DNA from: a virus
Direction: 5' to 3' (one strand)
IMG/VR virus record: IMGVR_UViG_3300017740_000114
Span: 1 to 20,711 of that record
DNA: 20,711 bases
In this document: positions 1-15,974 of the stretch, piece after piece
How the letters are laid out: each line of letters begins with the position of its first letter
How positions within the stretch are numbered: the stretch's first letter is position 1
The notes under the pieces: generated by a model
Told to the model about the DNA's origin: nothing
Databases searched by the model: none
Seen by the model: the letters and a program-made list of their open reading frames with translations, nothing else
Position numbers and translations under genes: made by a program

Positions 1-1902
1 AATGCCAATATGGTGGCGAATGAAGTTTTTATCGATACTGCAACTCTAAGAGAGAATGTAATAGCTCTTGCAAGAAATATTGGATATACACCTAAATCAA
101 GAAAAGCAGCAACATCTTCAATATCATTCTTTGTTGACACAACCAACATAACCCCCGTACCAGCATCCCTAACGCTTCGTAAGGGGACGGTAGTAGCGTC
201 TCAGGGAGTCTTTGGCGGTGGGTCGGGGTCATTCTGCATCTTAGACGATATAACGGTCCCTGTGGTCAATAAGATTGCTTCTTTCAATAATATACCAATC
301 TATGAAGGAACCGTTATAGAAAAGAATTTTACATATAGTGCTAGGAATCCTCAGCAAAAATTCATCTTACCCAACATTGGTATTGATACTGAACTGATTA
401 GAGTGGGCGTTAAGAATAATTCATCTTCTACAGCGACTGTAAAATATTCTTTACAAGATAGTTTGTTTTATATTGGATCAGAATCAAAAGTTTATTTTTT
501 ACAAGAAGTATCTGATGAAAGATATGAACTTTTCTTTGGTGATGGAAGTTTTGGTAAAAAACTTGATGACCAGAATTATATTACTGTTACATATTTGACC
601 ACTAATGGAGACGCTGGAAATGGATTTTCACAATTCTCCTTTAATGGAAGAATAACTTATGCAAGAGATGGTAATGAGTACACCGTTACAACTGGAATAT
701 CACTTGTAACACCAGAATTTAGTTCTAGGGGTGGATCTGCGATTGAGGGTGTAGAGTCTGTTAGAAAATATGCACCAAAAATTTATTCAACTCAAAATCG
801 TGCAGTAACCGCAGATGATTATGAAACTCTTATTCCAGCAAGAATATATCCAGATACTGAATCAATTTCGGTCTTTGGTGGAGAAGAATTAAATCCACCA
901 CAATATGGAAAAGTTTTTATTAGTATCAAACCTAAGTTTGGAGATTTCTTGCCAAACCTAATTAAAGAAAATATTAAATTAAAACTAAAGAAGTATGCAG
1001 TTGCAGGTGTTGTACCCGAAATCTTAGATCTTAAATATCTTTATATTGAAATAAGTTCAAAAATTTACTACAACACCAATTTAGCATCGTCATCAGCTGA
1101 TGTTTCTTCAATAGTTTCTACTAATGCCTCTAAGTATGCTAATTCTACTGAATTAAATAAGTATGGTGCTCGTTTTAAATATAGTAAATTTTTGAAAATT
1201 ATTGATGATAGTCATCCATCAGTAACATCAAACATTACTATTATGAGAATGAGAAGAGATTTGAGAATTGTACCAAGTACGATTGCAGAGTATCAAATTG
1301 GATTTGGAAATCAATTCCACATTGCAAATAGTGGTGGATATAATATAAAATCTTCTGGATTTAGAGTTTTTGGAATTTCTGAAAATTTATATCTCGGAGA
1401 CATTCCAAACTCAGAAGGAACAACTGGTTCATTATTCTTTTTTAGTCTTCCAAATGTAGGATCTCAAAATCCATCTATTGTAAGATCTAATATAGGAACT
1501 ATTGATTATATAAATGGGATAATAACTATCAATGCGGTTAATATTATTGCTGGTATAGAAAAAGATGGTCAACAAATTATTGAAATTCAAGCAACTCCAT
1601 TATCAAATGATGTTGTCGGATTACAGGACCTTTATTTGCAACTAGATACTAGTAACAGTACGTTTGAAATGGTATCAGACGAAATTGCATCGGGATTAGA
1701 TCCTTCAGCATCAAGTTATATCGTATCTTCTTCTTATGCAGAAGGTAATTTGGTTCGTGTTGGAGCCCCAGACAATGTTACACCTACTGTAGTTACTACT
1801 GCAGATATTACTACTACTAATAATTCTTTTACTGGAACAACTTCGACTTCCGGTGCTTCTGGTGGATCATCAACACCTTCGGGTGCTGGCGGCGGTTACT
1901 AA
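1..1902 (+). CDS. 6: Baseplate wedge protein gp6 (Baseplate_J family), 5'-partial
   Basis: The reading frame is open from base 1, so the gene begins upstream; the ATG at base 10 is internal (the frame reads NANMVANEVFIDTA across it). 633 residues are visible, and T4 gp6 has about 660. From family knowledge I expect roughly 60-70 N-terminal residues to be missing. Numbering from base 1, the hallmarks are a YELFFGDGSFGKKL segment near residues 175-188 and RAVTADDYETL near 267-277, typical of Baseplate_J/gp6 proteins. In T4, gp6 forms the inner ring that links the wedges around the hub. The C-terminal ~40 residues are a Thr/Ser/Gly-rich low-complexity tail ending in GAGGGY. The gene ends 19 bases before gp7, so the two are probably co-transcribed. 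Bases 151-240 are unusually GC-rich compared with the rest of the gene. Family call is firm; the missing length is inferred. Confidence 0.9.
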   Translation, partial: NANMVANEVFIDTATLRENVIALARNIGYTPKSRKAATSSISFFVDTTNITPVPASLTLRKGTVVASQGVFGGGSGSFCILDDITVPVVNKIASFNNIPIYEGTVIEKNFTYSARNPQQKFILPNIGIDTELIRVGVKNNSSSTATVKYSLQDSLFYIGSESKVYFLQEVSDERYELFFGDGSFGKKLDDQNYITVTYLTTNGDAGNGFSQFSFNGRITYARDGNEYTVTTGISLVTPEFSSRGGSAIEGVESVRKYAPKIYSTQNRAVTADDYETLIPARIYPDTESISVFGGEELNPPQYGKVFISIKPKFGDFLPNLIKENIKLKLKKYAVAGVVPEILDLKYLYIEISSKIYYNTNLASSSADVSSIVSTNASKYANSTELNKYGARFKYSKFLKIIDDSHPSVTSNITIMRMRRDLRIVPSTIAEYQIGFGNQFHIANSGGYNIKSSGFRVFGISENLYLGDIPNSEGTTGSLFFFSLPNVGSQNPSIVRSNIGTIDYINGIITINAVNIIAGIEKDGQQIIEIQATPLSNDVVGLQDLYLQLDTSNSTFEMVSDEIASGLDPSASSYIVSSSYAEGNLVRVGAPDNVTPTVVTTADITTTNNSFTGTTSTSGASGGSSTPSGAGGGY

Positions 1903-1921
1903 TTCAGAAATATACAAAAAA

Positions 1922-4900
1922 ATGGCAGAAACAAGAATCAAGTTTAGCAACATCGTTAAGAGTCAACTCCCATTATATGTGGAGAATGAGTTCCCTCTTA
2001 TCTCTGAATTTTTAAAACAGTATTATATTGGACAAGAATATAAAAGTGGACCTATTGATTTAATTCAAAATATTGATCAATATGTAAAACTAGATGAACA
2101 AACTTCAATAGATCATGAAGTAATTTTATCTGGTGATACTGATGCGTTTTCAACAACCATTAATATAAACCTTGAAGATTCACCAAAAGGAACTACGGAT
2201 TTTCCTAGTTCTTATGGACTTCTGAAACTAGGTAACGAAGTAATAACATATACAGGAAAAACATTATCTTCTTTTACTGGATGTATTAGGGGATTTAATG
2301 GAGTAACTTCATATAAGTCGGATTCTAATCCAGGGGAACTTGTCTTCAGTTCCACATCAGCAGAAGATCATAAAGACGGTGATACTATACAGAATTTAAG
2401 TTGTTTATTCTTAAAAGAATTTTTAAGCAAAACAAAAATTCAACTTTTACCTGGATTATCTGAGAGGCCACTCTCGTCCAATATTAACCAGAATTTATTC
2501 ATAAAGCAAGCAAAAGATTTCTATACAAGTAAAGGAACGGATGAGTCATATAGGATTTTGTTCAATGCTCTTTATGGAGTAAATGTTGAAATTGTAAAGC
2601 CAAGAGAATATCTATTCACACCTTCAAATGCTAGAAATTTAGTTACTTCCAATTTTCTAATTGAACCAATTTTTGGTAATCCTTCAGAGTTAGATAGTAG
2701 AACTATATTTCAAGGGGATAATGATGAAACATATACTTCGATATATGGTATAGAAAAAATTAATGCAGGAACTGGAAAAAATTTCTTTAAACTCTCATAT
2801 GATGATGGATATAATAGAGATATTAGAGTTCTTGGATCTACGACAGGTAACTTTAAAGTTGCACCAAAAACTCATATAATTGGAAATGTTTCTGCTGGAT
2901 CAACGTTTATTGATGTTGATTCAACAATTGGGTTCCCAAACTCCGGATCTCTTTACGTAGATTATCCCACAGGAGTTGCTAACCAAACTGGTATTGTATC
3001 CTATACCTCAAAAACAATCACCCAGTTCTTAGATTGTAGTAATATTACCGAAACTTTAATTGATGGTGATACATTAAGTACAGAAGATTTTGCCTTTGTA
3101 AAACCAGATGAAAACAATTCATCAATTGTAGTTCGCCTCTCTTCAGTTCTATCTGGATTTTCAAAACAAGATGGAATATATGATTATAAACCAGGGGATA
3201 GTTTTAATATAAAAACTCTTGGTGTTGAAGAAGATTCATTTAAATTTAAAAATTGGTTATATAATAATCCAGTAAAATATCTAATTGCAGATATTGAATT
3301 AATTGGAAATGTTTCACCAAAAACATATAAATTAACTTTAAACAAAGATAATTATTTGCTACTTGGTGATAATGTGACTGTTACTTCAGCATCAGGTATC
3401 GAAGTTTATAATGCAGAAATTTCTGATATTATTTCGTCTAAAGTTGTAACGATCAAGACTTCTGGTAATCTTATTACTGGTACAGAATATTACTTGCAAC
3501 GAAATATAAGAAAAGCAACGTCTACATTTTTTCCACAAATTAATAAGTTTCATGCAAACATTCAGAATGTTTATAAAAAACAATATGGAGATTCAATTTT
3601 AGTTGCATCAAACTCTTTACCTTCTTATAAAGAAAAACCAATTGTTGCAAATAAATCAACAAAAACTTTTAGTGGTACATTTGTAGGAACAACTTTAAAT
3701 ATAAAAGATCATGGATATTATAGTGGAGAATCTATATCATATACCCCACAAAAAATTGTAAGAAATGTAGACGTTGGTGATGGGCAGATTATAGAAGTTT
3801 CTACAATTTTATCGTCATTATTTGGTGGAGATGATGGTGGTGAAGGAATATATTATGTTTCCAGAGTAGATAACAATAATATAAAATTAGCAAAATCTTT
3901 AGCTAACTTATACACCTCAAAATTTGTAGTTATAGAGAGTACTACTACAGTTAGTAATAACATTCTAGAAAGATCTGAAACAAAAAATAAAAATATAGAG
4001 TCACAAAAACTTTATAGGGAAATTGCTACTCCTATCGATAGTGAAGTTAAAGTAGAAACGAAACCAGGTTCCACTGGAATTTTAGTTAATGGAGTTGAAA
4101 TTTTAAACTATAAATCAAAAGATATAATTCATACAGGAAGACTAGAAGAAGTTAAAGTATCTTCACCAGGAATTGACTTTGATGTAATTAATCCACCAGA
4201 ACTAACTATAGTAGATCCAGTTGGAACTGGTGCATCAGGATTTCTTGCAGTCAATGGAAGTTTAAGAGAACTTAGAATTATTGATAGGGGATTTGATTTT
4301 ACGGAAGTTCCTGTTGTTACGATAACTGGTGGGAATGGTAAGGATGCTAATGCCTTAGTTAATCTAAAGTTAATTTCACACTCTCAAGAATTTTTCTCTG
4401 ATCCTCAATCAAATAGAGTTGGTTTAGGATCTACTCTGTCTACTATTGGATTTTCTACTTATCATAAGTTTAGAAATGGGGAACAGTTAGTTTATAAACC
4501 AAACTCTCAACAAATTGTTGGTGGACTCTCTACTGATGCAACATATTTTGCAGAAGTTGTTGATGCCACTACAATTAAACTTCACAATACTGTTGGAGAG
4601 GCCGTTAGTGGTATTAATACAGTTACCTTATCTTTTAATGGTATAGGAAAACATACACTTGAGTGTTCTTCTAAAAAAGCAGTTGTAGATTCTATTAATA
4701 TTGTTAATAGTGGATTTGGATATCAAAATAAAAAAAGATCTGTTATTTCATCTGGAATTAATACTTCCTCTGATACTATTAATATAGAAAATCATGATTA
4801 TAAATCTGGAGAGATATTGCGATATTCTTCTGGAACTACAAACATTGGCGGATTAAGTAATGGGAATAATTACTATGTTACGGTAGTTGATGATAACAAC

Positions 4901-7900
4901 TTTAAACTATCTGAAATTGGATCTGCAGATGATGAAACTTTCTTCTATAAAACTAAACAATATGTAGATTTTAACACTTCTGGTAGTGGAACACATCACT
5001 TCAATTATATTCCCATCTCAGTATCAATTAAAGGTCCTGTTGGTATAGAAACTGTTACTGGAATTGAATCTAGTGCATATGAAGTTCAGGTTCAACCAAT
5101 TTTTAGAGGAGAACTTACATCGGTACATTTATCCGATAAAGGAACTGGATATGGAACTAATGAGATTATCAACTTTAAAAAACCACCCAATGTATCGATT
5201 ACTTCTGGAAAAAATGCCCAAGTTAATCCAATAGTATCTGCTGACGGAAAAATTGTTGAAGTAATTGTAAATAATGTTGGATCAGATTATACGTCTATTC
5301 CAGATGTAGACATACTCTCTTCTTCTGGAATTGGTTGTGTTTTAACTCCAATAATTGAAAATGGAATGCTTCGTGAAGTAAAAGTTATTGAACCTGGATC
5401 TGGATATATTTCTGGAGATGTTGATATTGAAATAGTTGCAACAGAAAGAGATTTTCAATTTATTCCTAGTCTGCAAACTTGGAGAGTCAATTTGTTTGAA
5501 AAATTATATAATAATAATTTAATCGGATCTGATGATGTAATTGTTAAAGCGGCATTGAATGAAAATTCTGGATTGCAATGTTACTCATTATATGCTCCTA
5601 GAGCATTGAGACAAATGATTTATTCTGTTAGTGAGTCAGGAAAAACTCTTTACGGAAAATTAGATCTAAAATTAGTAAACTCTCAAGAAACAGATTTTAC
5701 AGATCACTCACCTATCATTGGTTGGGCTTATGATGGAAATCCAATTTATGGTCCATATGGATATTCGAAAAAAGATGGGGGACTAGTAACCCTCATGAAG
5801 TCTAGTTACAAACTTAATACATCGCGTGTAAATGGACCACCAGTATCAGTTTTTCCATTAGGATTCTTTGTTGAAGACTTCACATATTATGAAAATGGCA
5901 ATGATGATTATCTTGACAGAAATAATGGAAGATTTTGCATAACTCCAGATTATCCAAATGGAGTATATGCATATTTTGTAACAATTAATCCAGATTCTAT
6001 AGAGTCTTCTGGATTGTTTGAAAACTTTAAACTTCCAACTTTCCCATATACTTTGGGTGACAAATACTATTCAACTCCTAACGAATTTAATTTCAAAAAA
6101 TCATCAAATCAAGATGATTATGATATTGAATCTAATAATTGGTGCAGAAATACAGTTTCATATAATTTAAGAGAAGACGGGGTTGAATACCCTTACATAT
6201 ATTCTCCAAACAATTTATCTCAGACTGGACAGATTGTATCTACAACTAGAGGAAAAGTTTCTAGAGTAGATGTAAAAAGTTCGGGAAATAATTATAAAGT
6301 CGGAGATACTTTAAATTTTTCAGATTCGGATGGAACTGGATTTGGAGCTGCTGGAAGAATTTCTAGACTGAAAGGTAGAGGTGTTAATAGTATTAGTGCG
6401 TCTACATCTAAAGTGTCAGACATAAAATTAATTCCTTCAAAAAAGAAAGGAACTTATATTGTAGAATCTACATCTCCCCACAATTTTAATGCATTAGATA
6501 TTGTCAATATCAGTGGAATTTCTACCACATCATCAAAAATTGAAGGATTCTATACAATTGGTGTATCTAGCGAAAGATTTGCAATATCTGGACTTGGAAC
6601 CACAGGAGTTGCTGTTGGTAGTACAAGTGTTACTGGATTAGTAACGTTCTTTAATGTATCTTCAAGTCTAGTTGGATCAAATATCGTACCTAATGATATT
6701 TTAGGTATTGGAACAGAAAGAGTAAAAGTTTTAAATGTAGATTTTAAAAACTCTAGATTCCGGGTTTTGAGATCCGTAGATGAAACTGTCGGTGGAATTC
6801 ATACTATTGGATCTTTATTGATAGAGGATTCGAGAAGATTAACTATTAATTCTGGATTTAAAGCACCATATGAATTTAAAAGAAATAAAGAAATCTACTT
6901 TGAACCAGGTGAAACTGTAGGTCTTGGTACAACGGCTGTTGGAATTGGGTCAGTATTGCAGTTTAGTTCTTTTGGATTAAACACAATTGGTCTTGGAACA
7001 ACTTTTGGGGCAAGTTCTCTTGCAGTTCCTATTAAATCACTGTATATAAGAAATCATAATTTACAAACCGGTGACATACTAACGTATTCTTCAAATGGTG
7101 GAAATGGTATAGTTTATAATGAATATCAAAATATTGGGGTTGCAGCAACTCTATCGGATAATCAACAATTGTTTGTTGCTAAAATTTCTAATGATTTAAT
7201 TGGAATTGCAACTCAAAGAGTTGGTTTGGGTTCAACTGGCGGATTTGATGGTGTAGGTAATACTTCAAAAACATTATTTTTCACTGGAATTGGTAGTGGT
7301 TCTAATCATAGTTTTAAAACAAATTATACTAATATTTCTGGAGATGTTTCAAAGACAACTGCGACTGTAACGACTGATTCGAATCATGGAATTCGTGCAG
7401 GTCATAATGTTATTGTAGATGTCAACCCATCATTTGCAACAACATATGTTGTAAAATATAATGATAAGCATAGAAGGACTCTAGTTGGAATTGAAACTTT
7501 TAGCGCAATTGGCGTTAATAGCACAACTAATACAATTAATATACTAAACCATGGTTATGAAAGTGGTGATAAAGTAATTCATTCATCATCTACACCATGT
7601 CAAGGATTGGAAAATGATAAGATTTATTATATTGTAAAAGTTGATAATGATAATATTAAATTATCAAACAGTCATTACGAATCAACTAATTTGACACCAA
7701 GTGTAGTTGGAATTTTAAGCACATCATTTGGTGAATTTGGACTTATTAATCCAGTTATTAAATCTTACAGAAGTTCTGAGTTAGAATTTGATATGTCAGA
7801 TTCTAGTTTAGCATTTGTTCAACAGGCTACACAATATTCAGCATTTAAACTTAATTTTTATACTAACGATAGTTATACAAATCTTTGGGAAACTGATCAG

Positions 7901-10900
7901 GTATCTTCAGGTTTCAGTATTTCTAGAACAGGATTTTCTGGAATATCAACAACTGCCAAAGTGGTAGTTTCTATAGGAAAAACCACACCAGAAAGATTAT
8001 ATTATAGGTTAGATCCTATTCTCGACAATAATTTACCTAAACAAAAATCAGAAATAATATCTGATTTAGAAGTTTCTAATCATAATTCCATTTTATCTCA
8101 AAATAGCATTTATAATGGCAATAGAAGAATTTCAATTGCAGGAACTAATTTCTTTACGTTTGAACTGAGTGAAGTTCCAGAATCAAATTCTTATGTATCT
8201 ACTTCATCGAGTATTACTTATACCACAGATTGTACGCATACAAATGGTCCAATATCTGCGGTAGAAGTTACTAGTTCTGGAAAAAATTACACTACTCTAC
8301 CTTCAATAACTTCTATCAATACTATTGAGGGAGAAAGAGGAGATCTTATATCCTTTAGTGATAATATTGGTGTTATTGAAAAAGTAAAAATTAATGATAT
8401 TGGATTTGATTTTCCAACAGACAAAACTTTAAAACCAAGTACTTCTCTGCCGCAAATAATTAATATCGACTCTTTTGCTAAAATTGAAAGTATTACTATT
8501 ACTTCTGGAGGTAGAGGATATTCTTCAGCACCAGACTTAGTATTTTTTGATGGTAAAACTGGCGATGAAATAATCGACCTTTCAACTAAGTATTCTTTGG
8601 GTGATTCTACGGTAACAATTTTAAGCAATACTAGAGGGATTAATAACTCTATTCCATCAGTATTACCAATAAGAAATACTAATGGAGTTGGTATCAGTAC
8701 AGTTGGATTTAGTACAATTACTAAAGATGTAACTGTTGAGATGGCAGTTGGATTTAGTACTGTTGGGAAATTCCCATTTGTAGTTGGTGATCAAGTTATG
8801 ATCGAAAATATCAGTATCGGTGGTACTGAAAGAGGGTATAACTCCAAAGATTATGGATATAAATTATTTACACTCACTTCTGTAACACCAAATATTGGTG
8901 GAATTGGAACAGTTTCGTATAATTTATCTGATGTATTGAATGTGGGAGAACTTCCAGGAGATTTTGATATAATCAATTCTTCTGGAATGATAATCGCAGA
9001 AAAAGATTTCCCAACTTTTAATATTCAATTGACAACTGGAAATTATCTTAGTGGAGAAAAAGTTACCACTAACGGTAAAGAAGGTGTCGTTCAAAGTTGG
9101 GATAGAACAACAAAGATCCTTAGAGTTCTTTCTAGTGATGATTTTGCAAGTGGTGAAGTTATACGAGGACTTACCTCAGAATTATCTGGAGTTGCATCAT
9201 CAATAACTTCTTATGAATCTTACTTTGAAACGGATGTTTCTTCTCAAATATTCAGTGGAAACCAAACTGGATCTGGATTCTTAAATGATCATTTGCAGAG
9301 ATTGCCGGATAATTTATATTATCAAAACTTTTCATATTCTTTAAAAAGTGTAGTTCCATTTGATACCTGGAAAGATACTGTATCTTCATTAAATCATACT
9401 CTTGGTTACAAAAAATTTGCAGACCTTCAAATTGAATCTACAAATTTAGATACCTCTTTATCTGTGGGTATTTCTACAGAATTAACTGATGTTACTGTCG
9501 TCAGTAGTTTGGATGGATTTATAGATCTTAATTGCGTATTTGATTTTGACATTGCTACAGAAAATAATCTTAATTTTTCTGATGGAAATAATATTCTTTC
9601 TAATGAAATTATTTTTAATAATAAAATTCTAAGTGACTTTACAGAATCATTTGGAAATAGAGTTCTTTCTATTGATGATATAAGTCCGAAATTTAATAGC
9701 AATCCAAGATCAACTGCTTTTAGTGTTCTGAATTCTTTTAATTTAAGTGATTCTAGATTTAGAAAATATTTTACTTATCTTAGAGATAAAAGATTTACTC
9801 AAGAAAGACAAGCTTTAATTGTTGATCTTATTCATGATGAAACATTTGGATATATCAACCAATATGCAAGATTAGAAACAGTATATGATCAAGGGTCTTT
9901 CGACTTTTCAATTTCTGGCACAGAAGGTCAACTTTTATTCTATCCAGTTAAGTCATCCGTGAATGACTATGATATTACAACAATTTCATATAATCTAAAT
10001 GACAATTTCTTAAGTACTGGTTCTACTTCTATCGGAGGAGTTTTAATTGATTCGGAAAGCACAATAGTAAGTGCTGGAACGACTGCAACAATTGTAAGTA
10101 TTGGTAACACCTATCATTCACTGAAAGTTCTTGTTGAAATTGCTCCTGATGTAGAAAACGTTTCTTATGGTGCAACATCTACATTTAATGTAAATGAATT
10201 TGAGGCTCAAGAACTTAATATTGTTCATGATGGATCAGATGTTTCTATTTTAGAGTATGGTAAGTTAACTACTTCACTAAGTGGATATAGTGCAATTGGA
10301 TTTGGAACTTACACAGCACGTCTCGATGGATCAAATATTAAACTTGACTTTAATCCATCTGGAATAGGAACTAATGCGGTAGTTAATACTATTGTTGTTG
10401 GTTTATCTTCGATATCTTCAGGAATTTCAACTGTTGACATTAAACATGCCAGATTGCAATCTACCATGACGGATATTGCATCATCTGGTTCTCCAATTCA
10501 AAATGTTGTTGCAGAATATCCAAGTCATATTTCTACTGAAATTGATAGGTATGATGCTGGATATTTTATGATTCAGATTCACGATACAACAAATGATAGA
10601 TACGAATTTTTAGAATATTTTGTTGTTGACGATCATATTGAAGGAGAAACATCTTCAGAAACATTCGATACAGAGTTTGCAAATATTCAAACTCACTCTG
10701 GACTTGGAACTTTTGGTTCTAGAGTAATAGCAAATTCTGTTGGACTCGCTGCAACCACTCAAGTCCTCTTTACACCGATATCAGGAATTGATGCAACCGT
10801 TCATGTATACACAAATGCTCTTAGAATTGAAGATGACACAAAAGATACTATTGATTTTACTAATGGTACTATAGAAACCGGATATGGTACATACACTGGA

Positions 10901-13900
10901 ACTGACAGAGACATAAAGAGAGAGTTTGAACTAACTCACAAGAATGATGCTATCTTTATTAAAGCTTTTGAAGGAGATAGCACTTCAATTGTTAATCTAG
11001 ATTCAAATACAATTACAATTCCAAATCACTTCTATGTGACGGGTGAGCAAATTGAATATACTTGCCCTGGTATTGGAATTACTCAATCCATTGGCATTGC
11101 TCAAACTACATTTCCTGTAACTGGTGTTACAACAACATTACTTCCAGAAACTGGAATATTTGCAATTAAAATTAATGACAACACAATTAAACTTGCTAGA
11201 AGTGCTGAAGATGCTTTAAACTCAATTCCAAAAGTACTTGATTTTACTTCAGTTGGGGTTGGAGTTGGTCACTCATTTACCGCAACAAACCAAAATCCAA
11301 AAGTACTTGTTGCAATTGATAACTTAATCCAGTCACCAATTGTTTCTACGGCAGTTACCACAACATTAAGTGATCAAGTTGTAACAACAGATAATATCGT
11401 CAATTTTACTGGAATCACCTCATTCTTTGGTGGAGATTTATTTAAGATTGGTAATGAAATAATGAAAATTGAGAGTATTGGTATTGGAACAGCAAATGCA
11501 ATCTCTGTTCGTAGGGGGTGGATGGGAACCACTATCCAATCTGGAATTGCAACAGGTAGTTTAGTAACAAAGGTTGTTGGAAACTATAATATTGTTGGAA
11601 ATAAACTCAATTTTGTTGAAGCACCATATGGAAATACTCCAATTGGAACTATAACAAATCCACCAGATCAAAGAGATTATACTGGAATAACTACTAGTTC
11701 TACCTTCCAAGGAAGAAGTTTCATGAGGACAGCGGCTCCAAATACTATTAATGAAACATATTATAAAAATTATGTTTTTGATGACATTTCTAGCAATTTT
11801 AACGGAATTGAAAATGAGTTTACTCTCAAGTCCAACGGAACAAATATAACTGGAATTGATAATGAAGGAGCTATTGTATTAATAAATGACATATTCCAAA
11901 CTCCAGGAAATGCTAATAATTATACTCTTTCCGAAAATACTGGTATAACTTCTATTAGTTTTGTGGGATTTGCACAGACTATAACATCTGATGTTGGTAT
12001 TAGTAGTTTCCCTAAAGGTGGAATAATTGTTTCTGTCGGTTCACAAAAAGGTCTTGGATATCAACCACTAGTGGCCGCTGGCGGTACTGCAATTATTTCT
12101 GGATTAGGAACTATTTCATCTATTAGTATTGGAAATAGTGGATCTGGATATAGATCCGGGATTCAAACTGTCAATGTTAGCGTTGGCACTTCTAGTCTTT
12201 CTGGATTAAATCTAGTTAGAGTTGGAATTGCCTCTATTAATAATGGAAATATAGTTAGTATAGCAATTACTAATCCAGGAACCGGATATACTGCATCAAA
12301 TTTACCATTTGTAGTAGTTGATAGTCCACTTTCATATTCAAATATTCCTTTGACATATACTTCTGGAGTAACTGGATTAGGAACACAAGCAAAAATTGAT
12401 GTTGTAGTTGGTCAAGGATCCAGTATTATTGATTTTGAGATTAAAAACACTGGTTATGGATATGGTAATGGAGAAACCCTTACTGTTGGATTTGGAGGAA
12501 CTACTGGAATTCCAACTACATCAGCGTTTACTTCATCAAATCAGTTTGAAATTGAAATTGAAAAAATCATTAATGACGAATTTACTGGTTGGTCTTTAGG
12601 TGTTATAGAAACGTTTGACGATGTTACTAGATTTATTGATGGCACTAGAATTGACTTCCCATTAATTAAGGCAGGTATTCCAATATCTATCAATAAGGCA
12701 AAAGGATCTAAAATCGAACTTGATCAATTACTTTTAGTATTTGTAAATGAGATACTTCAAATTCCTGGAAACTCATACAAATTTGATGGTGGTTCTCAAA
12801 TAACATTTACAGAACCACTAAAGATTGGTGATAAACTTACAATCAATTTCTATAAAGGAAGTGGAAGTGATCTTGATGTTATTGATAGAGAAGTTCTTGA
12901 AACTATTAAGTACGGAGATGAAGTTACTTTAAATTATAATCCAGATTTGGGACAAAAACCATATCAACAAGAAAATGCAAGAACAATTAGTACAGTAACT
13001 AATATTGATAGAGCTAAAACTCTTCCATATTTTGGTCCAGGCAATACTAGGGATACTACCTTTGAAAGACCAATTACGTGGTGTAGACAAACTGAAGATA
13101 AAATTATTAATGGACAAGAAGTTGGTAAAGATAGAGAACTTTACGAAGCAGTTATTAATCCAACCGCAAACATAATTAATTCGGTTAGTATTGGTTCTAC
13201 AATCATCTATGTTGATAGATTAAGACCGGTATTTGATCTTAATAATGAAAATGTAGATTCTAATTTTAGAGAAACCATTCAAAAAGAAATAACAATTTCT
13301 TCATCTGAAGTAACTGTAGGAGCGTCTGCAACCGCTGTTGTTTCATCTACAGGTACGATTGCTTCAATTGATGTAAACAACGGTGGAGTTGGTTATTCAG
13401 CGGCACCAGACGTTAGTGTTGGTATCGGGTCTATCACAGCAACAGCAACATCAACAATCATTAATGGAGTTGTCACTGGAGTTACTATTACCAATCCTGG
13501 TGCTGGATACACTCAAACTAACCCACCGTTAGTTCTTATCGGTCCTCCTTCACAACAAACAGAAACTTGTGATGTTTCTTCTTATTCTGGAGATTCAGGT
13601 GTTATTGTTGGATTTGGAATAACAACAGTTGGATTGACTAATGAAATTGGTTTAGATTTCCACATTCCATATAACTCAGAATTAAGAAATACAAATCTAG
13701 TAGGTGCTGCGATAACATTAAGTGGAATATCTGTTGGAGATTACTTTACTATATTCAATTCTAATGCTGGTGATGCACTAGGTGGTACACTTACATCTTT
13801 TGATACGTCTAATAACATAATAGGAATTACAACATTATTCATTGATTCAGTATTCCAAGCAAAATCTGTCCAAGTAGTCACCAGAACTATTGGTGGAATA

Positions 13901-14209
13901 TCCACTAATGTTGTAAGAGTAAATTCTTTAGCCACTGGAATAGGAACTATTGGATTTAGTTCGACTACAGAATCGTTTGATAGTACATTGTTCACTTTTG
14001 ACAATTCCGGATTAAAATCATTTACTGGCGGATTTACTACATCCAATTATTTTGGTGAATTTAGTTGGGGTAAAGTTATAGTTGATGCTAGAACTAAAGA
14101 ACTATCGCATGAAGCAAGAACTTTAAATGGATTCTCGGGATTATCAACTTCGGATACATTAACTCGAACAAGATATCTTAGATTTAAAAAGAACACCAAT
14201 ACAATATAA
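1922..14209 (+). CDS. 7: Giant baseplate wedge protein gp7-like with degenerate YHYH domain and internal repeats
   Basis: This encodes 4095 residues. I chose the ATG at 1922 (MAETRIKFSNIV) because it lies 19 bases after the gp6 stop; the frame is open to an ATG at 1853, but that start would overlap the gp6 tail and add 23 unconvincing residues. The call rests on position between gp6 and gp8, as in T4, and on an N-terminus (QLPLYVENEFPLISEFLKQY) that I recall from cyanophage proteins annotated as gp7 wedge initiator. T4 gp7 is about 1030 residues, so this is roughly fourfold larger. Residues ~1-250 look like the conserved wedge head. A YHYH-type domain (IIGWAYDGNPIYGPYGY) starts near residue 1264. 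The rest is beta-rich repeat modules, listed separately. I see no signal peptide, membrane segment or catalytic motif. The C-terminus (ELSHEARTLNGFSGLS) precedes a late promoter that overlaps the stop codon. The gp7 name is well supported by context; the role of most of the chain is unknown. Confidence 0.78.
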   Translation: MAETRIKFSNIVKSQLPLYVENEFPLISEFLKQYYIGQEYKSGPIDLIQNIDQYVKLDEQTSIDHEVILSGDTDAFSTTININLEDSPKGTTDFPSSYGLLKLGNEVITYTGKTLSSFTGCIRGFNGVTSYKSDSNPGELVFSSTSAEDHKDGDTIQNLSCLFLKEFLSKTKIQLLPGLSERPLSSNINQNLFIKQAKDFYTSKGTDESYRILFNALYGVNVEIVKPREYLFTPSNARNLVTSNFLIEPIFGNPSELDSRTIFQGDNDETYTSIYGIEKINAGTGKNFFKLSYDDGYNRDIRVLGSTTGNFKVAPKTHIIGNVSAGSTFIDVDSTIGFPNSGSLYVDYPTGVANQTGIVSYTSKTITQFLDCSNITETLIDGDTLSTEDFAFVKPDENNSSIVVRLSSVLSGFSKQDGIYDYKPGDSFNIKTLGVEEDSFKFKNWLYNNPVKYLIADIELIGNVSPKTYKLTLNKDNYLLLGDNVTVTSASGIEVYNAEISDIISSKVVTIKTSGNLITGTEYYLQRNIRKATSTFFPQINKFHANIQNVYKKQYGDSILVASNSLPSYKEKPIVANKSTKTFSGTFVGTTLNIKDHGYYSGESISYTPQKIVRNVDVGDGQIIEVSTILSSLFGGDDGGEGIYYVSRVDNNNIKLAKSLANLYTSKFVVIESTTTVSNNILERSETKNKNIESQKLYREIATPIDSEVKVETKPGSTGILVNGVEILNYKSKDIIHTGRLEEVKVSSPGIDFDVINPPELTIVDPVGTGASGFLAVNGSLRELRIIDRGFDFTEVPVVTITGGNGKDANALVNLKLISHSQEFFSDPQSNRVGLGSTLSTIGFSTYHKFRNGEQLVYKPNSQQIVGGLSTDATYFAEVVDATTIKLHNTVGEAVSGINTVTLSFNGIGKHTLECSSKKAVVDSINIVNSGFGYQNKKRSVISSGINTSSDTINIENHDYKSGEILRYSSGTTNIGGLSNGNNYYVTVVDDNNFKLSEIGSADDETFFYKTKQYVDFNTSGSGTHHFNYIPISVSIKGPVGIETVTGIESSAYEVQVQPIFRGELTSVHLSDKGTGYGTNEIINFKKPPNVSITSGKNAQVNPIVSADGKIVEVIVNNVGSDYTSIPDVDILSSSGIGCVLTPIIENGMLREVKVIEPGSGYISGDVDIEIVATERDFQFIPSLQTWRVNLFEKLYNNNLIGSDDVIVKAALNENSGLQCYSLYAPRALRQMIYSVSESGKTLYGKLDLKLVNSQETDFTDHSPIIGWAYDGNPIYGPYGYSKKDGGLVTLMKSSYKLNTSRVNGPPVSVFPLGFFVEDFTYYENGNDDYLDRNNGRFCITPDYPNGVYAYFVTINPDSIESSGLFENFKLPTFPYTLGDKYYSTPNEFNFKKSSNQDDYDIESNNWCRNTVSYNLREDGVEYPYIYSPNNLSQTGQIVSTTRGKVSRVDVKSSGNNYKVGDTLNFSDSDGTGFGAAGRISRLKGRGVNSISASTSKVSDIKLIPSKKKGTYIVESTSPHNFNALDIVNISGISTTSSKIEGFYTIGVSSERFAISGLGTTGVAVGSTSVTGLVTFFNVSSSLVGSNIVPNDILGIGTERVKVLNVDFKNSRFRVLRSVDETVGGIHTIGSLLIEDSRRLTINSGFKAPYEFKRNKEIYFEPGETVGLGTTAVGIGSVLQFSSFGLNTIGLGTTFGASSLAVPIKSLYIRNHNLQTGDILTYSSNGGNGIVYNEYQNIGVAATLSDNQQLFVAKISNDLIGIATQRVGLGSTGGFDGVGNTSKTLFFTGIGSGSNHSFKTNYTNISGDVSKTTATVTTDSNHGIRAGHNVIVDVNPSFATTYVVKYNDKHRRTLVGIETFSAIGVNSTTNTINILNHGYESGDKVIHSSSTPCQGLENDKIYYIVKVDNDNIKLSNSHYESTNLTPSVVGILSTSFGEFGLINPVIKSYRSSELEFDMSDSSLAFVQQATQYSAFKLNFYTNDSYTNLWETDQVSSGFSISRTGFSGISTTAKVVVSIGKTTPERLYYRLDPILDNNLPKQKSEIISDLEVSNHNSILSQNSIYNGNRRISIAGTNFFTFELSEVPESNSYVSTSSSITYTTDCTHTNGPISAVEVTSSGKNYTTLPSITSINTIEGERGDLISFSDNIGVIEKVKINDIGFDFPTDKTLKPSTSLPQIINIDSFAKIESITITSGGRGYSSAPDLVFFDGKTGDEIIDLSTKYSLGDSTVTILSNTRGINNSIPSVLPIRNTNGVGISTVGFSTITKDVTVEMAVGFSTVGKFPFVVGDQVMIENISIGGTERGYNSKDYGYKLFTLTSVTPNIGGIGTVSYNLSDVLNVGELPGDFDIINSSGMIIAEKDFPTFNIQLTTGNYLSGEKVTTNGKEGVVQSWDRTTKILRVLSSDDFASGEVIRGLTSELSGVASSITSYESYFETDVSSQIFSGNQTGSGFLNDHLQRLPDNLYYQNFSYSLKSVVPFDTWKDTVSSLNHTLGYKKFADLQIESTNLDTSLSVGISTELTDVTVVSSLDGFIDLNCVFDFDIATENNLNFSDGNNILSNEIIFNNKILSDFTESFGNRVLSIDDISPKFNSNPRSTAFSVLNSFNLSDSRFRKYFTYLRDKRFTQERQALIVDLIHDETFGYINQYARLETVYDQGSFDFSISGTEGQLLFYPVKSSVNDYDITTISYNLNDNFLSTGSTSIGGVLIDSESTIVSAGTTATIVSIGNTYHSLKVLVEIAPDVENVSYGATSTFNVNEFEAQELNIVHDGSDVSILEYGKLTTSLSGYSAIGFGTYTARLDGSNIKLDFNPSGIGTNAVVNTIVVGLSSISSGISTVDIKHARLQSTMTDIASSGSPIQNVVAEYPSHISTEIDRYDAGYFMIQIHDTTNDRYEFLEYFVVDDHIEGETSSETFDTEFANIQTHSGLGTFGSRVIANSVGLAATTQVLFTPISGIDATVHVYTNALRIEDDTKDTIDFTNGTIETGYGTYTGTDRDIKREFELTHKNDAIFIKAFEGDSTSIVNLDSNTITIPNHFYVTGEQIEYTCPGIGITQSIGIAQTTFPVTGVTTTLLPETGIFAIKINDNTIKLARSAEDALNSIPKVLDFTSVGVGVGHSFTATNQNPKVLVAIDNLIQSPIVSTAVTTTLSDQVVTTDNIVNFTGITSFFGGDLFKIGNEIMKIESIGIGTANAISVRRGWMGTTIQSGIATGSLVTKVVGNYNIVGNKLNFVEAPYGNTPIGTITNPPDQRDYTGITTSSTFQGRSFMRTAAPNTINETYYKNYVFDDISSNFNGIENEFTLKSNGTNITGIDNEGAIVLINDIFQTPGNANNYTLSENTGITSISFVGFAQTITSDVGISSFPKGGIIVSVGSQKGLGYQPLVAAGGTAIISGLGTISSISIGNSGSGYRSGIQTVNVSVGTSSLSGLNLVRVGIASINNGNIVSIAITNPGTGYTASNLPFVVVDSPLSYSNIPLTYTSGVTGLGTQAKIDVVVGQGSSIIDFEIKNTGYGYGNGETLTVGFGGTTGIPTTSAFTSSNQFEIEIEKIINDEFTGWSLGVIETFDDVTRFIDGTRIDFPLIKAGIPISINKAKGSKIELDQLLLVFVNEILQIPGNSYKFDGGSQITFTEPLKIGDKLTINFYKGSGSDLDVIDREVLETIKYGDEVTLNYNPDLGQKPYQQENARTISTVTNIDRAKTLPYFGPGNTRDTTFERPITWCRQTEDKIINGQEVGKDRELYEAVINPTANIINSVSIGSTIIYVDRLRPVFDLNNENVDSNFRETIQKEITISSSEVTVGASATAVVSSTGTIASIDVNNGGVGYSAAPDVSVGIGSITATATSTIINGVVTGVTITNPGAGYTQTNPPLVLIGPPSQQTETCDVSSYSGDSGVIVGFGITTVGLTNEIGLDFHIPYNSELRNTNLVGAAITLSGISVGDYFTIFNSNAGDALGGTLTSFDTSNNIIGITTLFIDSVFQAKSVQVVTRTIGGISTNVVRVNSLATGIGTIGFSSTTESFDSTLFTFDNSGLKSFTGGFTTSNYFGEFSWGKVIVDARTKELSHEARTLNGFSGLSTSDTLTRTRYLRFKKNTNTI
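2147..3088 (+). repeat. gp7 module C, copies 1 and 2 (IGNE / RG-turn type)
   Basis: Two diverged protein-level copies sit at 2147-2317 (residues 76-132; LLKLGNEVITYTG then FTGCIRGFNGVTSY) and 2900-3088 (residues 327-389; SLYVDYPTGV then GIVSYTSKTITQFLDC). A third copy is at 11405-11575 (residues 3162-3218; LFKIGNEIMKIESIG then ISVRRGWMGTT). The shared pattern is a Gly-rich lead-in, a hydrophobic strand with LGNE or a substitute, a short loop, then a C/V-R-G turn with Gly-Thr/Ser. Copies 1 and 3 are convincing by eye; copy 2 is weaker. The function is unknown; I infer a small beta domain. Confidence 0.55.
3686..3903 (+). repeat. gp7 module A, copy 1 (NHGY / YYV-VD-N-IKL type)
   Basis: Residues 589-661. 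It opens with LNIKDHGYYSGESISY and closes with YYVSRVDNNNIKLAKS. It is the first of six copies of a module whose pattern is a hydrophobic strand, N/D-H-x-Y/L, x-S/T-G-D/E, a strand, a variable loop, then Y-x-V-x-x-V/I-x-x-N-x-I/F-K/G-L/I. This looks like a compact beta domain. The function is not recognised. Confidence 0.6.
4138..5437 (+). repeat. gp7 repeat region: module B copies 1-6 interleaved with module A copies 2 and 3
   Basis: Module B has the pattern V-x-V/I-x-x-x-G-x-G/D-Y/F-x-x-x-P-x-V-x-I followed by a Gly-rich turn. Examples here are LRELRIIDRGFDFTEVPVV (from 4259), SVHLSDKGTGYGTNEI, VEVIVNNVGSDYTSIPDV and LREVKVIEPGSGYISGDV. Module A copy 2 is at 4421-4594 (STYHKFRNGEQLVY to FAEVVDATTIKLHN), and copy 3 at 4763-4924 (TINIENHDYKSGEILRY to YYVTVVDDNNFKLSE). 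After each of these A copies comes a closing strand of the form F-N-x-x-G-x-H-x-F/L (FNGIGKHTL; FNTSGSGTHHF). The order B-B-A-B-A-B-B-B suggests module shuffling rather than one simple tandem array. Confidence 0.65.
5582..6205 (+). other. Degenerate YHYH domain within gp7
   Basis: The region contains IIGWAYDGNPIYGPYGYS (near residue 1264), matching the characteristic WAYDG-P-YGP segment of the YHYH family (PF14240 by recall). It then has NGVYAYFVTINPD, with YAYF at 5966-5977 (residues 1349-1352) where bacterial family members carry Tyr-His-Tyr-His, and FPYTLGDKYYS, which aligns with the following conserved block. Both histidines of the name-giving motif are therefore absent, so any metal or catalytic role assumed for that motif is unlikely here. 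A structural role in the baseplate is the simpler reading. Domain limits are approximate. Confidence 0.7.
6251..6361 (+). repeat. gp7 module B, copy 7
   Basis: KVSRVDVKSSGNNYKVGDTL followed by FSDSDGTGFGAAG fits the V-x-V-x-x-x-G-x-x-Y pattern and the trailing Gly-rich turn of module B. It lies directly after the YHYH domain. Moderate support by eye. Confidence 0.5.
7028..7678 (+). repeat. gp7 module A, copies 4 and 5
   Basis: Copy 4 is at 7028-7219 (residues 1703-1766): SLYIRNHNLQTGDILTYSS, then LFVAKISNDLIGIATQ, then the closing strand FTGIGSGSNHSF. Copy 5 is at 7520-7678 (residues 1867-1919): TINILNHGYESGDKVIHSS, then YYIVKVDNDNIKLSNS. Copy 5 is the clearest match to copies 1 and 3, especially N-H-x-Y, SG-D/E and V-D-x-N-N/D-x-K-L. 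Confidence 0.65.
8249..8563 (+). repeat. gp7 module B, copies 8-10
   Basis: Three successive copies: ISAVEVTSSGKNYTTLPSIT (from 8252), VIEKVKINDIGFDFPTDKT, and IESITITSGGRGYSSAPDLV (to about 8540, followed by FFDGKTG). The third is close to the best conserved form, G-x-G-Y-S-x-A-P-D-V, also seen at residues near 3823 (GGVGYSAAPDV). Confidence 0.6.
9032..9217 (+). repeat. gp7 module E (SGE-V / TSG type)
   Basis: Residues 2371-2432: NYLSGEKVTTNGKEGVVQSW, a linker, ILRVLSSDDFASGEVIRG, then LTSELSGVASSI. The pattern is a GE-x-V strand, a G-x-x-G-V/A-x-A/V turn, a strand ending L-x-V/L, then a second F-x-x-GE-x-I/V-x-G. Similar units occur in the gp8 gene (about 17146-17280) and twice in the DUF4815 gene (about 17884-17940 and 20284-20463). 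Function unknown. Confidence 0.5.
10112..10822 (+). repeat. gp7 module F, two tandem copies
   Basis: Copy 1 is at 10112-10405 (residues 2731-2828): YHSLKVLVEIAPDVENVSYG, then ELNIVHDGSDVSILEYGKLT, then GTYTARLDGSNIKLDFNPSG. Copy 2 is at 10559-10822 (residues 2880-2967): YFMIQIHDTTNDRYEFLEYF, then VVDDHIEG, GTFGSRVIANSVGL and VLFTPISGIDATVHVY. Shared order of features: a strand ending in an acidic turn, Y-E-F/x-x-E-x-x-V, a loop, G-x-G/L-T-F/Y, then a strand ending F-x-P-x-G-x-x-A-x-V. They appear to be diverged tandem duplicates. Confidence 0.55.
10997..11212 (+). repeat. gp7 module A, copy 6
   Basis: Residues 3026-3097: SNTITIPNHFYVTGEQIEYT, an insert rich in GIGI and TTT, then FAIKINDNTIKLARSAED, and downstream the closing strand FTSVGVGVGHSF. 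This is the last A copy and lies 150 residues after the second F module. Confidence 0.6.
11405..11575 (+). repeat. gp7 module C, copy 3
   Basis: Residues 3162-3218: FGGDLFKIGNEIMKIESIG, then ISVRRGWMGTTIQSGIATGS. It matches copy 1 near the N-terminus (LLKLGNEVITYTG; CIRGFNGVTSY) across more than 3000 residues of separation, which indicates an old duplication or module exchange. Confidence 0.55.
11801..12868 (+). repeat. gp7 module D pair with module B copies 11-13 between them
   Basis: Module D copy 1 is at 11801-11977 (residues 3294-3352; ENEFTLKSNG, then IVLINDIFQTPGNANNYTL). Copy 2 is at 12641-12868 (residues 3574-3649; TRIDFPLIKAG, then LLLVFVNEILQIPGNSYKFD and IGDKLTINFYKGSG). The shared core is hydrophobic-V/I-N-D/E-I-F/L-Q-x-P-G-N-x-Y. 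Between them lie B copies: ISSISIGNSGSGYRSGIQTV (from 12110), IVSIAITNPGTGYTASNLPF (from 12251) and IIDFEIKNTGYGYGNGETL (from 12425). Confidence 0.6.
13352..13549 (+). repeat. gp7 module B, copies 14 and 15 (best conserved)
   Basis: Two adjacent copies: IASIDVNNGGVGYSAAPDVS (from 13355) and VTGVTITNPGAGYTQTNPPL (from 13472). They define the consensus V-x-I-x-N-x-G-x-G-Y-x-x-x-P-x-V. The DNA here is about 46% G+C over 13381-13560 (counted), above the surrounding gene. Confidence 0.65.
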
Positions 14210-14231: not shown

Positions 14232-15974
14232 ATGGCAAGACAGGTAATAGCAACGGGTTCATCTCCAAATGATGGTACAGGTGATAATTTAAGAGCCGGT
14301 GGTACAAAAATTAATGATAACTTTACCGAATTATATGATCTTTTTGGAAATGGAACTACTCTATCAAGTGGATCATGGGACGTAGTTAATTCTGGTATCA
14401 ACACTCTTTCTGACGTTGGTATTGGAACTACTAATCCTAGATTTACTCTCGAAGTAGGAGCAGTAGGTGCTTCAGGAACTTCTTTACATGTTAATGGTGA
14501 TGCTAGAATTACTGGAATAATTTCTACCACCCAAGTAATTATTAGTGGAGAAACGTTAACGGGAGCAGGTGTTACTTCACTTGTTGCTGGTTCGAATATT
14601 ACTTTATCTGGAAGTACTGGACAAGTGACAATTAATGCTTCTGGTGGAGGTGGTGGTGGATCAGCAGGTGTAGGTGGCACTTGGAGCAACTATGATGGTG
14701 TAACTGGTGTTACAACCACAAAGAAAGTAAAAATACAAAATGACTTAGAAGTTACTGGTGTAACAACATCAACTGGTGGTTTTGTTGGCACTCTAGATGG
14801 TGTTGTTGGTGGAAATTCACCAGCAGCTATCACGGGTACAACCATTACAGCAAATACTAATTTTTCTGGCAATCTTACAGGTAATGTAACTGGTAATGTT
14901 AGTGGTTCTTCTGGATCATGTAGTGGAAACTCTGCAACAGCAACAGTTTTAGCAGCATCCAGAAATATTGGTGGCGTTGCTTTTAATGGATCGGGAGATA
15001 TTAACCTTCCAGGTGTCAATCAGGCAGGAAATCAAGATACATCAGGGACTGCCGCAATTGCTACTAATGTTACAGTTACTGATGAGTCTACTGACACAAT
15101 TTGCTTCCCACTGTTTACAACTGCTGCTACTGGAAATTTACCACCTAAAAGTGGAACTAATCTTACCTTCAATTCAAGTACTGGTACTCTAAGTGCTAAC
15201 AATTTTGATGGTAATGCAACAGGATTGACGGGAACTCCCAATCTAGTTGTTGGTATCATTACTGCAACCTCACTTGAGGGTAATGCTTCTGATATGACAG
15301 CAGGTCAATGGGTTCTTGGTGCTAATGGAACTAGCGACTATACATTCACTGGTCCTGGATTAAGTGGAGCACAAAATGATCCGTCTCTTTATCTACAAAG
15401 AGGTAAAACCTATAAATTTGTAAATGGAATGGGTGCTCATCCATTTCAGATTCAATTAACTTCTGGTCAGGGTGGAACCGCATATAATAATGGAGTTACA
15501 AATAATGGAACATCAAGCGGAACTGTAACTATTGAAGTTAGACAAGATGCTCCTGATATTCTCTATTATCAGTGTACTTCTCATGCGAATATGGGAGGAA
15601 TATTAAATATTGTGGGTAGTGGAGTTCCAACTGGTGGTATTATTATGTGGTCTGGTGCTAGTGTTCCTGGTGGGTGGTCACTTTGTGATGGAACTAATTC
15701 GACTCCAGATTTAAGAGATAGATTTATTGTTAGTTCTGGAAGTGTATATTCTATTGGAGATACTGGTGGTGCTAATTCTGTTACTCTCACTGTAGATCAA
15801 ATTCCTGCTCACACTCACGCAATTACTGCCATTAATGATGGATCGCCATCCGCACCTTACTCATCACCCAGATCAGCTTATGCATCTGAGATTGATTCAG
15901 GATCCACAGGTGGTGGTCAGTCACACGAAAACAGACCTCCATATTATGCTCTTGCATTCATTATGAAAACTTGA
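14232..15974 (+). CDS. Fibre protein with cupredoxin-like and tail-collar domains
   Basis: This encodes 580 residues. The start ATG follows an A-rich leader 20 bases after the late-promoter box. Domains in order: an N-terminal motif (GSSPNDGTGDNL then KINDNFTELYDLF, residues ~9-39) that recurs in marine T4-like fibre proteins; VGIGTTNPRFTLEVG (~62-77), a common fibre segment; a polyglycine hinge near residue 140; fibre repeats including SATATVLAASRNIGGVAFNG (~235-254) and CFPLFTTAATGNLPPKSGTN; a cupredoxin-like domain (~358-462); and a phage tail-collar domain (~464-580; IIMWSGASVPGGWSLCDG, DLRDRFIV, IPAHTHAI), ending NRPPYYALAFIMKT. Collar domains occur in receptor-binding short and long tail fibres such as T4 gp12. 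His527 and His529 in PAHTH resemble the metal-binding His-x-His of gp12. In T4, gene 8 follows gene 7 directly, so this gene is an addition between them. Fibre identity is firm; its receptor and attachment site are unknown. Confidence 0.87.
   Translation: MARQVIATGSSPNDGTGDNLRAGGTKINDNFTELYDLFGNGTTLSSGSWDVVNSGINTLSDVGIGTTNPRFTLEVGAVGASGTSLHVNGDARITGIISTTQVIISGETLTGAGVTSLVAGSNITLSGSTGQVTINASGGGGGGSAGVGGTWSNYDGVTGVTTTKKVKIQNDLEVTGVTTSTGGFVGTLDGVVGGNSPAAITGTTITANTNFSGNLTGNVTGNVSGSSGSCSGNSATATVLAASRNIGGVAFNGSGDINLPGVNQAGNQDTSGTAAIATNVTVTDESTDTICFPLFTTAATGNLPPKSGTNLTFNSSTGTLSANNFDGNATGLTGTPNLVVGIITATSLEGNASDMTAGQWVLGANGTSDYTFTGPGLSGAQNDPSLYLQRGKTYKFVNGMGAHPFQIQLTSGQGGTAYNNGVTNNGTSSGTVTIEVRQDAPDILYYQCTSHANMGGILNIVGSGVPTGGIIMWSGASVPGGWSLCDGTNSTPDLRDRFIVSSGSVYSIGDTGGANSVTLTVDQIPAHTHAITAINDGSPSAPYSSPRSAYASEIDSGSTGGGQSHENRPPYYALAFIMKT
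15303..15617 (+). other. Cupredoxin-like domain with complete type-1 copper ligand set
   Basis: Residues ~358-462 of the fibre. YTFTGPGL and LYLQRGKTYKFVNGMGAHPF precede VRQDAPDILYYQCTSHANMG. The candidate ligands are His403 (codon 15438), Cys448 (15573), His451 and Met454. Cys-x2-His-x2-Met matches the ligand spacing of amicyanin (Cys92, His95, Met98 by recall), and the upstream His lies 45 residues before the Cys (39 in amicyanin). All four residues are seen directly; copper binding is inferred. Confidence 0.75.

Follow-up and report, generated by a model that had tools for sequence, protein, structure and literature searches.

A cupredoxin-like domain with a candidate type-1 copper site in tail fibres of marine cyanophages

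Results

A fibre gene between gp7-like and gp8 genes

The window, that is the whole stretch of 20,711 nucleotides analyzed here, comes from a marine cyanobacterial virus and covers part of a T4-like cyanophage genome. Its gp8 shares 74% identity with gp8 of Synechococcus phage S-SM2, and its gp6 shares 69% identity with gp6 of phage Bellamy. Between a giant gp7-like gene and gp8 lies an ORF (Table 1) that we assign to a tail or baseplate fibre because of its T4 gp9/gp10-like N-terminus (PF07880, 25.2 bits with a Pfam cut-off of 25) and its matches to PHROG tail families. One of these, phrog_677, the cyanophage "baseplate wedge tail fiber protein connector" (gp9), shows near full-length profile similarity (E 9.7e-47, fibre residues 1-462, profile positions 1-410 of 412), with the cupredoxin-like domain corresponding to its C-terminal part. 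The fibre of the window extends beyond this family into a collar-like C-terminus, and the family carries no copper annotation. In the giant gp7-like baseplate protein next to the fibre (ORF 1853-14209) there is a YHYH domain (PF14240), whose family has no known function.

The fibre gene is not present in every phage of this kind. No gene separates the gp7-like gene from gp8 in S-SM2, Bellamy and SynMITS9220M01, whereas RB11-B and P-TIM68 carry a fibre with the cupredoxin-like domain at the equivalent position, indicating that the gene behaves like an exchangeable cassette.

Table 1. Positions in the window of the fibre gene, its domains and ligand codons, and of a domain in the neighboring gp7-like gene.
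Feature	Position	Strand	Basis
Tail/baseplate fibre gene, 580 aa, ATG start	14232..15974	+	ORF; PF07880, phrog_677 and phrog_1800 matches
N-terminal baseplate-attachment segment, T4 gp9/gp10-like, residues 3-45	14238..14366	+	Pfam PF07880
Cupredoxin-like domain, residues 358-462	15303..15617	+	AlphaFold model, Foldseek PDB matches, family alignment
His403 codon CAT, candidate first ligand	15438..15440	+	Family alignment; kept in intact lineage
Cys448 codon TGT, candidate thiolate ligand	15573..15575	+	Family alignment
His451 codon CAT, candidate second His ligand	15582..15584	+	Family alignment
Met454 codon ATG, candidate axial-type ligand	15591..15593	+	Family alignment
C-terminal collar-like fibre region, residues 468-580	15633..15974	+	PF07484 weak; phrog_1800
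YHYH domain PF14240, residues 1282-1382 of gp7-like protein	5696-5998		Pfam E 1e-23

Ligand residues and predicted fold

A first-pass annotation made from the sequence had proposed that this fibre contains a complete type-1 copper motif, formed by His403, Cys448, His451 and Met454, in a cupredoxin-like domain beside a receptor-binding collar. All four residues are read in the fibre ORF, and the ligand loop Cys-Thr-Ser-His-Ala-Asn-Met has the Cys-x2-His-x2-Met spacing that it shares with amicyanin. No second Cys-x2-His-x2-Met motif occurs elsewhere in the window in any reading frame. A chance match to the motif is ruled out by its family-wide conservation in equivalent alignment columns. The domain part of the proposal is borne out by the predicted cupredoxin fold and the complete, conserved ligand set. 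The collar is more tentative: the PF07484 tail-collar match is weak (18.4 bits, under the Pfam cut-off of 24), and the assignment is backed by phrog_1800, a tail collar fibre protein family that covers residues 428-580.

An AlphaFold (AF2) model of the window domain, built from 91 aligned domains of the window and related viral contigs, has eight strands with a mean pLDDT of 93.7 and a pTM of 0.86. In the model, His403 lies in a loop just before a strand, Cys448 ends the penultimate strand, His451 sits in the following loop and Met454 directly precedes the last strand, which is the cupredoxin order. According to the first-pass annotation, a fold with the four residues far apart would have spoken against the copper site; in the main lineage, the predicted topology places them at the standard cupredoxin positions. 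A Foldseek search of the PDB with this model gave 12 matches at E<=0.001, all of them copper proteins (nitrite reductase 2dv6, rusticyanin, CueO, laccase), with plastocyanin and amicyanin lower in the list; the TM-scores to solved cupredoxins are moderate (about 0.4-0.55). By predicted fold and ligand order, the window domain is a cupredoxin Greek-key beta-sandwich. The fold search of BFVD also returned models of "beta-sandwich proteins" from Pithovirus LCPAC302 and Marseillevirus LCMAC201.

Distant kinship to known copper proteins

At the sequence level, the similarity of the fibre domain to known cupredoxins is weak and very distant. Searching the PDB with the window domain as a single sequence gave nothing at E<=10; with the family profile, almost all matches were type-1 copper proteins, albeit with a best E-value of 0.0015. 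In a profile comparison with cyanophage PetE (plastocyanin), which gave an E-value of 2.7e-4 and a probability of 41%, His403, Cys448, His451 and Met454 align with the four ligand positions of plastocyanin. The Pfam Copper-bind family (PF00127) weakly matches 42 of the 91 family members, and the second domain copy in the P-SSM2 fibre passes its curated cut-off (23.3 vs 21.2). The window copy itself matches neither PF00127 at E<=1 nor the NCBIfam amicyanin family TIGR02657, for which the P-SSM2 relative scores 23.4 bits, below the cut-off of 110.2. In Pfam, the window copy alone yields a sub-threshold At5g54830-like match only, and it falls under the curated cut-off of every copper family tried in Pfam and NCBIfam. 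Judged by these cut-offs, the fibre domain is neither a plastocyanin nor an amicyanin. A misplaced auxiliary plastocyanin gene was likewise considered and rejected: 11 of the 15 cyanophages tested encode a separate petE, with a signal-like leader in those that were read out.

Conservation of the ligand set and a ligand-free clade

Conservation of the four ligands was assessed in scans that differed in how far they depend on the motif itself. A first scan for viral homologues was excluded as a conservation test, since one of its patterns contained Cys-x2-His-x2-Met. The query of a second scan stopped short of this segment, with His403 included in one of six patterns; here, all four ligands were present in 67 of 81 complete homologues. 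They were also found in 28 of 29 domain copies from whole genomes of phage isolates, and in 10/10 copies from genome contigs, where the scan patterns include the Cys, so that this count is not independent for that residue. Pro404, directly after the first ligand His, is conserved as well (Pro in 218 of 223 intact domains).

Among 124 non-redundant domains placed in a tree that was calculated with the ligand columns left out, 92 are intact and 32 are not. Most of the latter (25 of 32) fall into one clade with a support of 99. Since a scan that started from one member of this clade added further members to it, its size is not a frequency. Of the 99 non-redundant domains outside this clade, 92 have the full quartet. 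Members of the clade carry Leu, Phe or Tyr in place of His403, mostly Asn, Ser or Ala in place of Cys448, and Gln or Glu in place of His451; Met454 is usually retained. At 90% clustering, the two His and the Cys are jointly missing in 45 of 51 non-intact domains; a test for concerted loss on independent pairs found just four pairs on supported branches and so lacked power. The free loss of Cys or His residues, which the first-pass annotation had named as a sign against a copper site, is not seen in the main lineage; this one separate clade lacks both His and usually the Cys. Members of the ligand-free clade (L209-L288) are found in virion-like proteins, some of them encoded by ORFs of 4300-4800 aa. 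One fibre (L089) carries two tandem copies of the domain, one intact and one degenerate.

The model of the ligand-free clade has a pLDDT of 92.9 and matches rusticyanin and other cupredoxins (TM up to 0.67, for rusticyanin). In contrast, the profile of this clade loses the type-1 copper matches in the PDB, with one plastocyanin left at E = 1. Sequence matches of the family are thus partly driven by the motif, whereas the fold assignment does not depend on it. As far as the models go, the fold does not need the metal site, for a whole clade without the ligands keeps it. Retention of the quartet in the main lineage, although the fold can do without it, suggests that selection acts on a putative bound metal.

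Distribution and mobility of the module

The first-pass annotation regarded such a domain as an unusual virion component. This view does not hold, as the domain is common across cyanophage fibres: tblastn searches recovered it in 325 phage records, 321 of which carry the name of a Synechococcus, Prochlorococcus or cyanobacterial phage. Its carriers include both T4-like Kyanoviridae and T7-like Autographiviridae such as P-GSP1, and some cyanophages of similar kind, namely S-SM2 and SynMITS9220M01, lack it. The few matches in bacterial assemblies all come from metagenome-assembled or single-cell genomes; the three that were scanned resemble phage tail or fibre genes, and these copies may be viral sequence.

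In complete ORFs, the domain is internal in 49 cases, C-terminal in 42 and N-terminal in 17; it stands, for example, at the C-terminal end of the phrog_677-type proteins of Syn9 and S-SSM5. This varied position indicates that the module moves between fibres. A comparison of the window with the related contig L001 also suggests that recombination has exchanged the domain region: the domain DNA (15300-15617 of the window) is identical, while the upstream, N-terminal part of the fibre differs (dS 0.23). The domain is also encoded by SSCSM1_231 of phage S-SCSM1, a gene annotated as "virion protein". The virion proteome of this phage was determined by mass spectrometry (PMC9602691).

Discussion

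The fold family described here is a known one, the cupredoxins, and its description in phage fibres is new as far as the literature was searched; we found no report of cupredoxin domains in phage fibres, with most subscription journals lying outside the search. Amicyanin and plastocyanin (PF00127) likewise have the cupredoxin fold with an early-loop His and a Cys-His-Met group on the last loop. They differ from the fibre domain, which has no export signal and is embedded in a fibre. Moreover, an Asn after the first ligand His is the rule in the plastocyanin and amicyanin families, and is also seen in phage PetE, whereas the fibre domain has Pro404 at this position. The best fold matches are found among nitrite reductase, rusticyanin and the multicopper oxidases (2dv6, 1gy2, CueO), and the His-Pro-Phe-x-Ile-x segment of the fibre is similar to the HPFHxH segment of the oxidases. 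In contrast to multicopper oxidases and nitrite reductase, the fibre domain is a single domain without the extra type-2 and type-3 His residues, and nothing in the present evidence points to an enzyme function.

We favor, as the probable explanation, a mobile cupredoxin module in a baseplate-anchored cyanophage fibre, whose intact type-1 His2-Cys-Met site would bind copper, be filled outside the host cytosol, and stabilize or equip the fibre. Copper is proposed as the metal because the ligand set is that of a type-1 site, and the predicted site would most likely bind one copper ion per chain. Since no export signal precedes the domain and the fibre must be assembled in the cytosol of the host, an environment poor in free copper, we infer that the site is filled during or after lysis or in seawater. 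The metal would most likely tie the loop of the first His to the Cys-His-Met loop and thereby harden an exposed fibre domain. Contact with the host surface, for binding or redox exchange, would fit the loss pattern equally well, and we consider it possible, if less likely than stabilization.

The same cytosolic assembly disfavors copper loading, and could also be read as a hint that the domain is a reused beta-sandwich, serving as a spacer or in adhesion, which is metal-free in nature and keeps its ligand residues for packing and hydrogen bonds. The shared predicted fold of the ligand-free clade, with its Leu/Phe/Tyr, Asn/Ser/Ala, Gln/Glu and Met residues, is in line with this, and the persistence of Met454 even there points to a structural value of its own. 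However, the same clade indicates that His403, Cys448 and His451 can each be replaced by packing residues, and yet the set is kept in nearly all non-redundant domains outside it, in T7-like and T4-like phages alike; nor would packing alone predict the exact quartet with amicyanin spacing. We regard a metal-free domain as unlikely.

Retention of the complete His2-Cys-Met set as a unit in most lineages, despite a fold that survives without it, would also be expected if the metal had an active part. Iron-binding HxH fibres are known from the T4 gp37 tip and Alteromonas phage R22Y, and metal-bearing phage fibres have been proposed to serve host entry in the case of iron (PMC11705849). These fibres resemble the predicted copper site in placing metal ligands in a phage fibre; they differ in that octahedral iron is held via paired His in a needle, rather than by a His2-Cys-Met site inside one beta-sandwich. 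By analogy, the fibre domain could be a redox-active or copper-delivering element, a copper "Ferrojan horse", in which blue copper on the virion would take part in electron exchange with a copper-handling protein of the host surface, or be bound by such a protein. The occurrence of the domain near fibre N-termini as well as C-termini is a poor fit to a dedicated receptor tip, and its absence from similar cyanophages such as S-SM2 and SynMITS9220M01 also speaks against such a role, to which we assign a rather small probability. Similarly doubtful is the strongest form of the copper hypothesis, namely that virions of T4-like and T7-like cyanophages expose functional blue-copper domains with bound copper on their fibres, take up this copper from the host or from seawater, and employ it in host recognition or electron exchange, so that marine phage particles would carry biologically bound copper.

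Apo-cupredoxin Cys/His/Met sites can accept zinc or other metals, but Met is a poor ligand for Zn or Fe. Another structural metal in place of copper, such as Zn(II), Ag(I) or Fe, therefore appears highly improbable despite the use of iron by fibres of T4 and other phages via HxH motifs (PMC11705849), as both the ligands and their order match a type-1 copper site and not an HxH iron site.

If the site of the favored mobile cupredoxin module does hold copper, some of the most abundant viruses of the sea would bear a metal centre on their attachment fibres, and ideas on metals in phage fibres that are based on iron would be extended to copper. Such a copper centre, if real, would have been hidden behind labels such as "hypothetical protein" or "baseplate connector". 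For the hosts Prochlorococcus and Synechococcus, copper is both scarce and toxic. The ligand-free clade represents a ready-made natural control for the role of the metal. Furthermore, weak plastocyanin-like matches in viral metagenomes should be interpreted with caution, as they may represent fibre domains rather than photosynthesis genes. A cupredoxin-like domain with all four ligands intact also forms the end of subtilisin-like proteases of the cyanophages ACG-2014e and S-H9-1 (L183:1264-3324 and L184:1303-3309).
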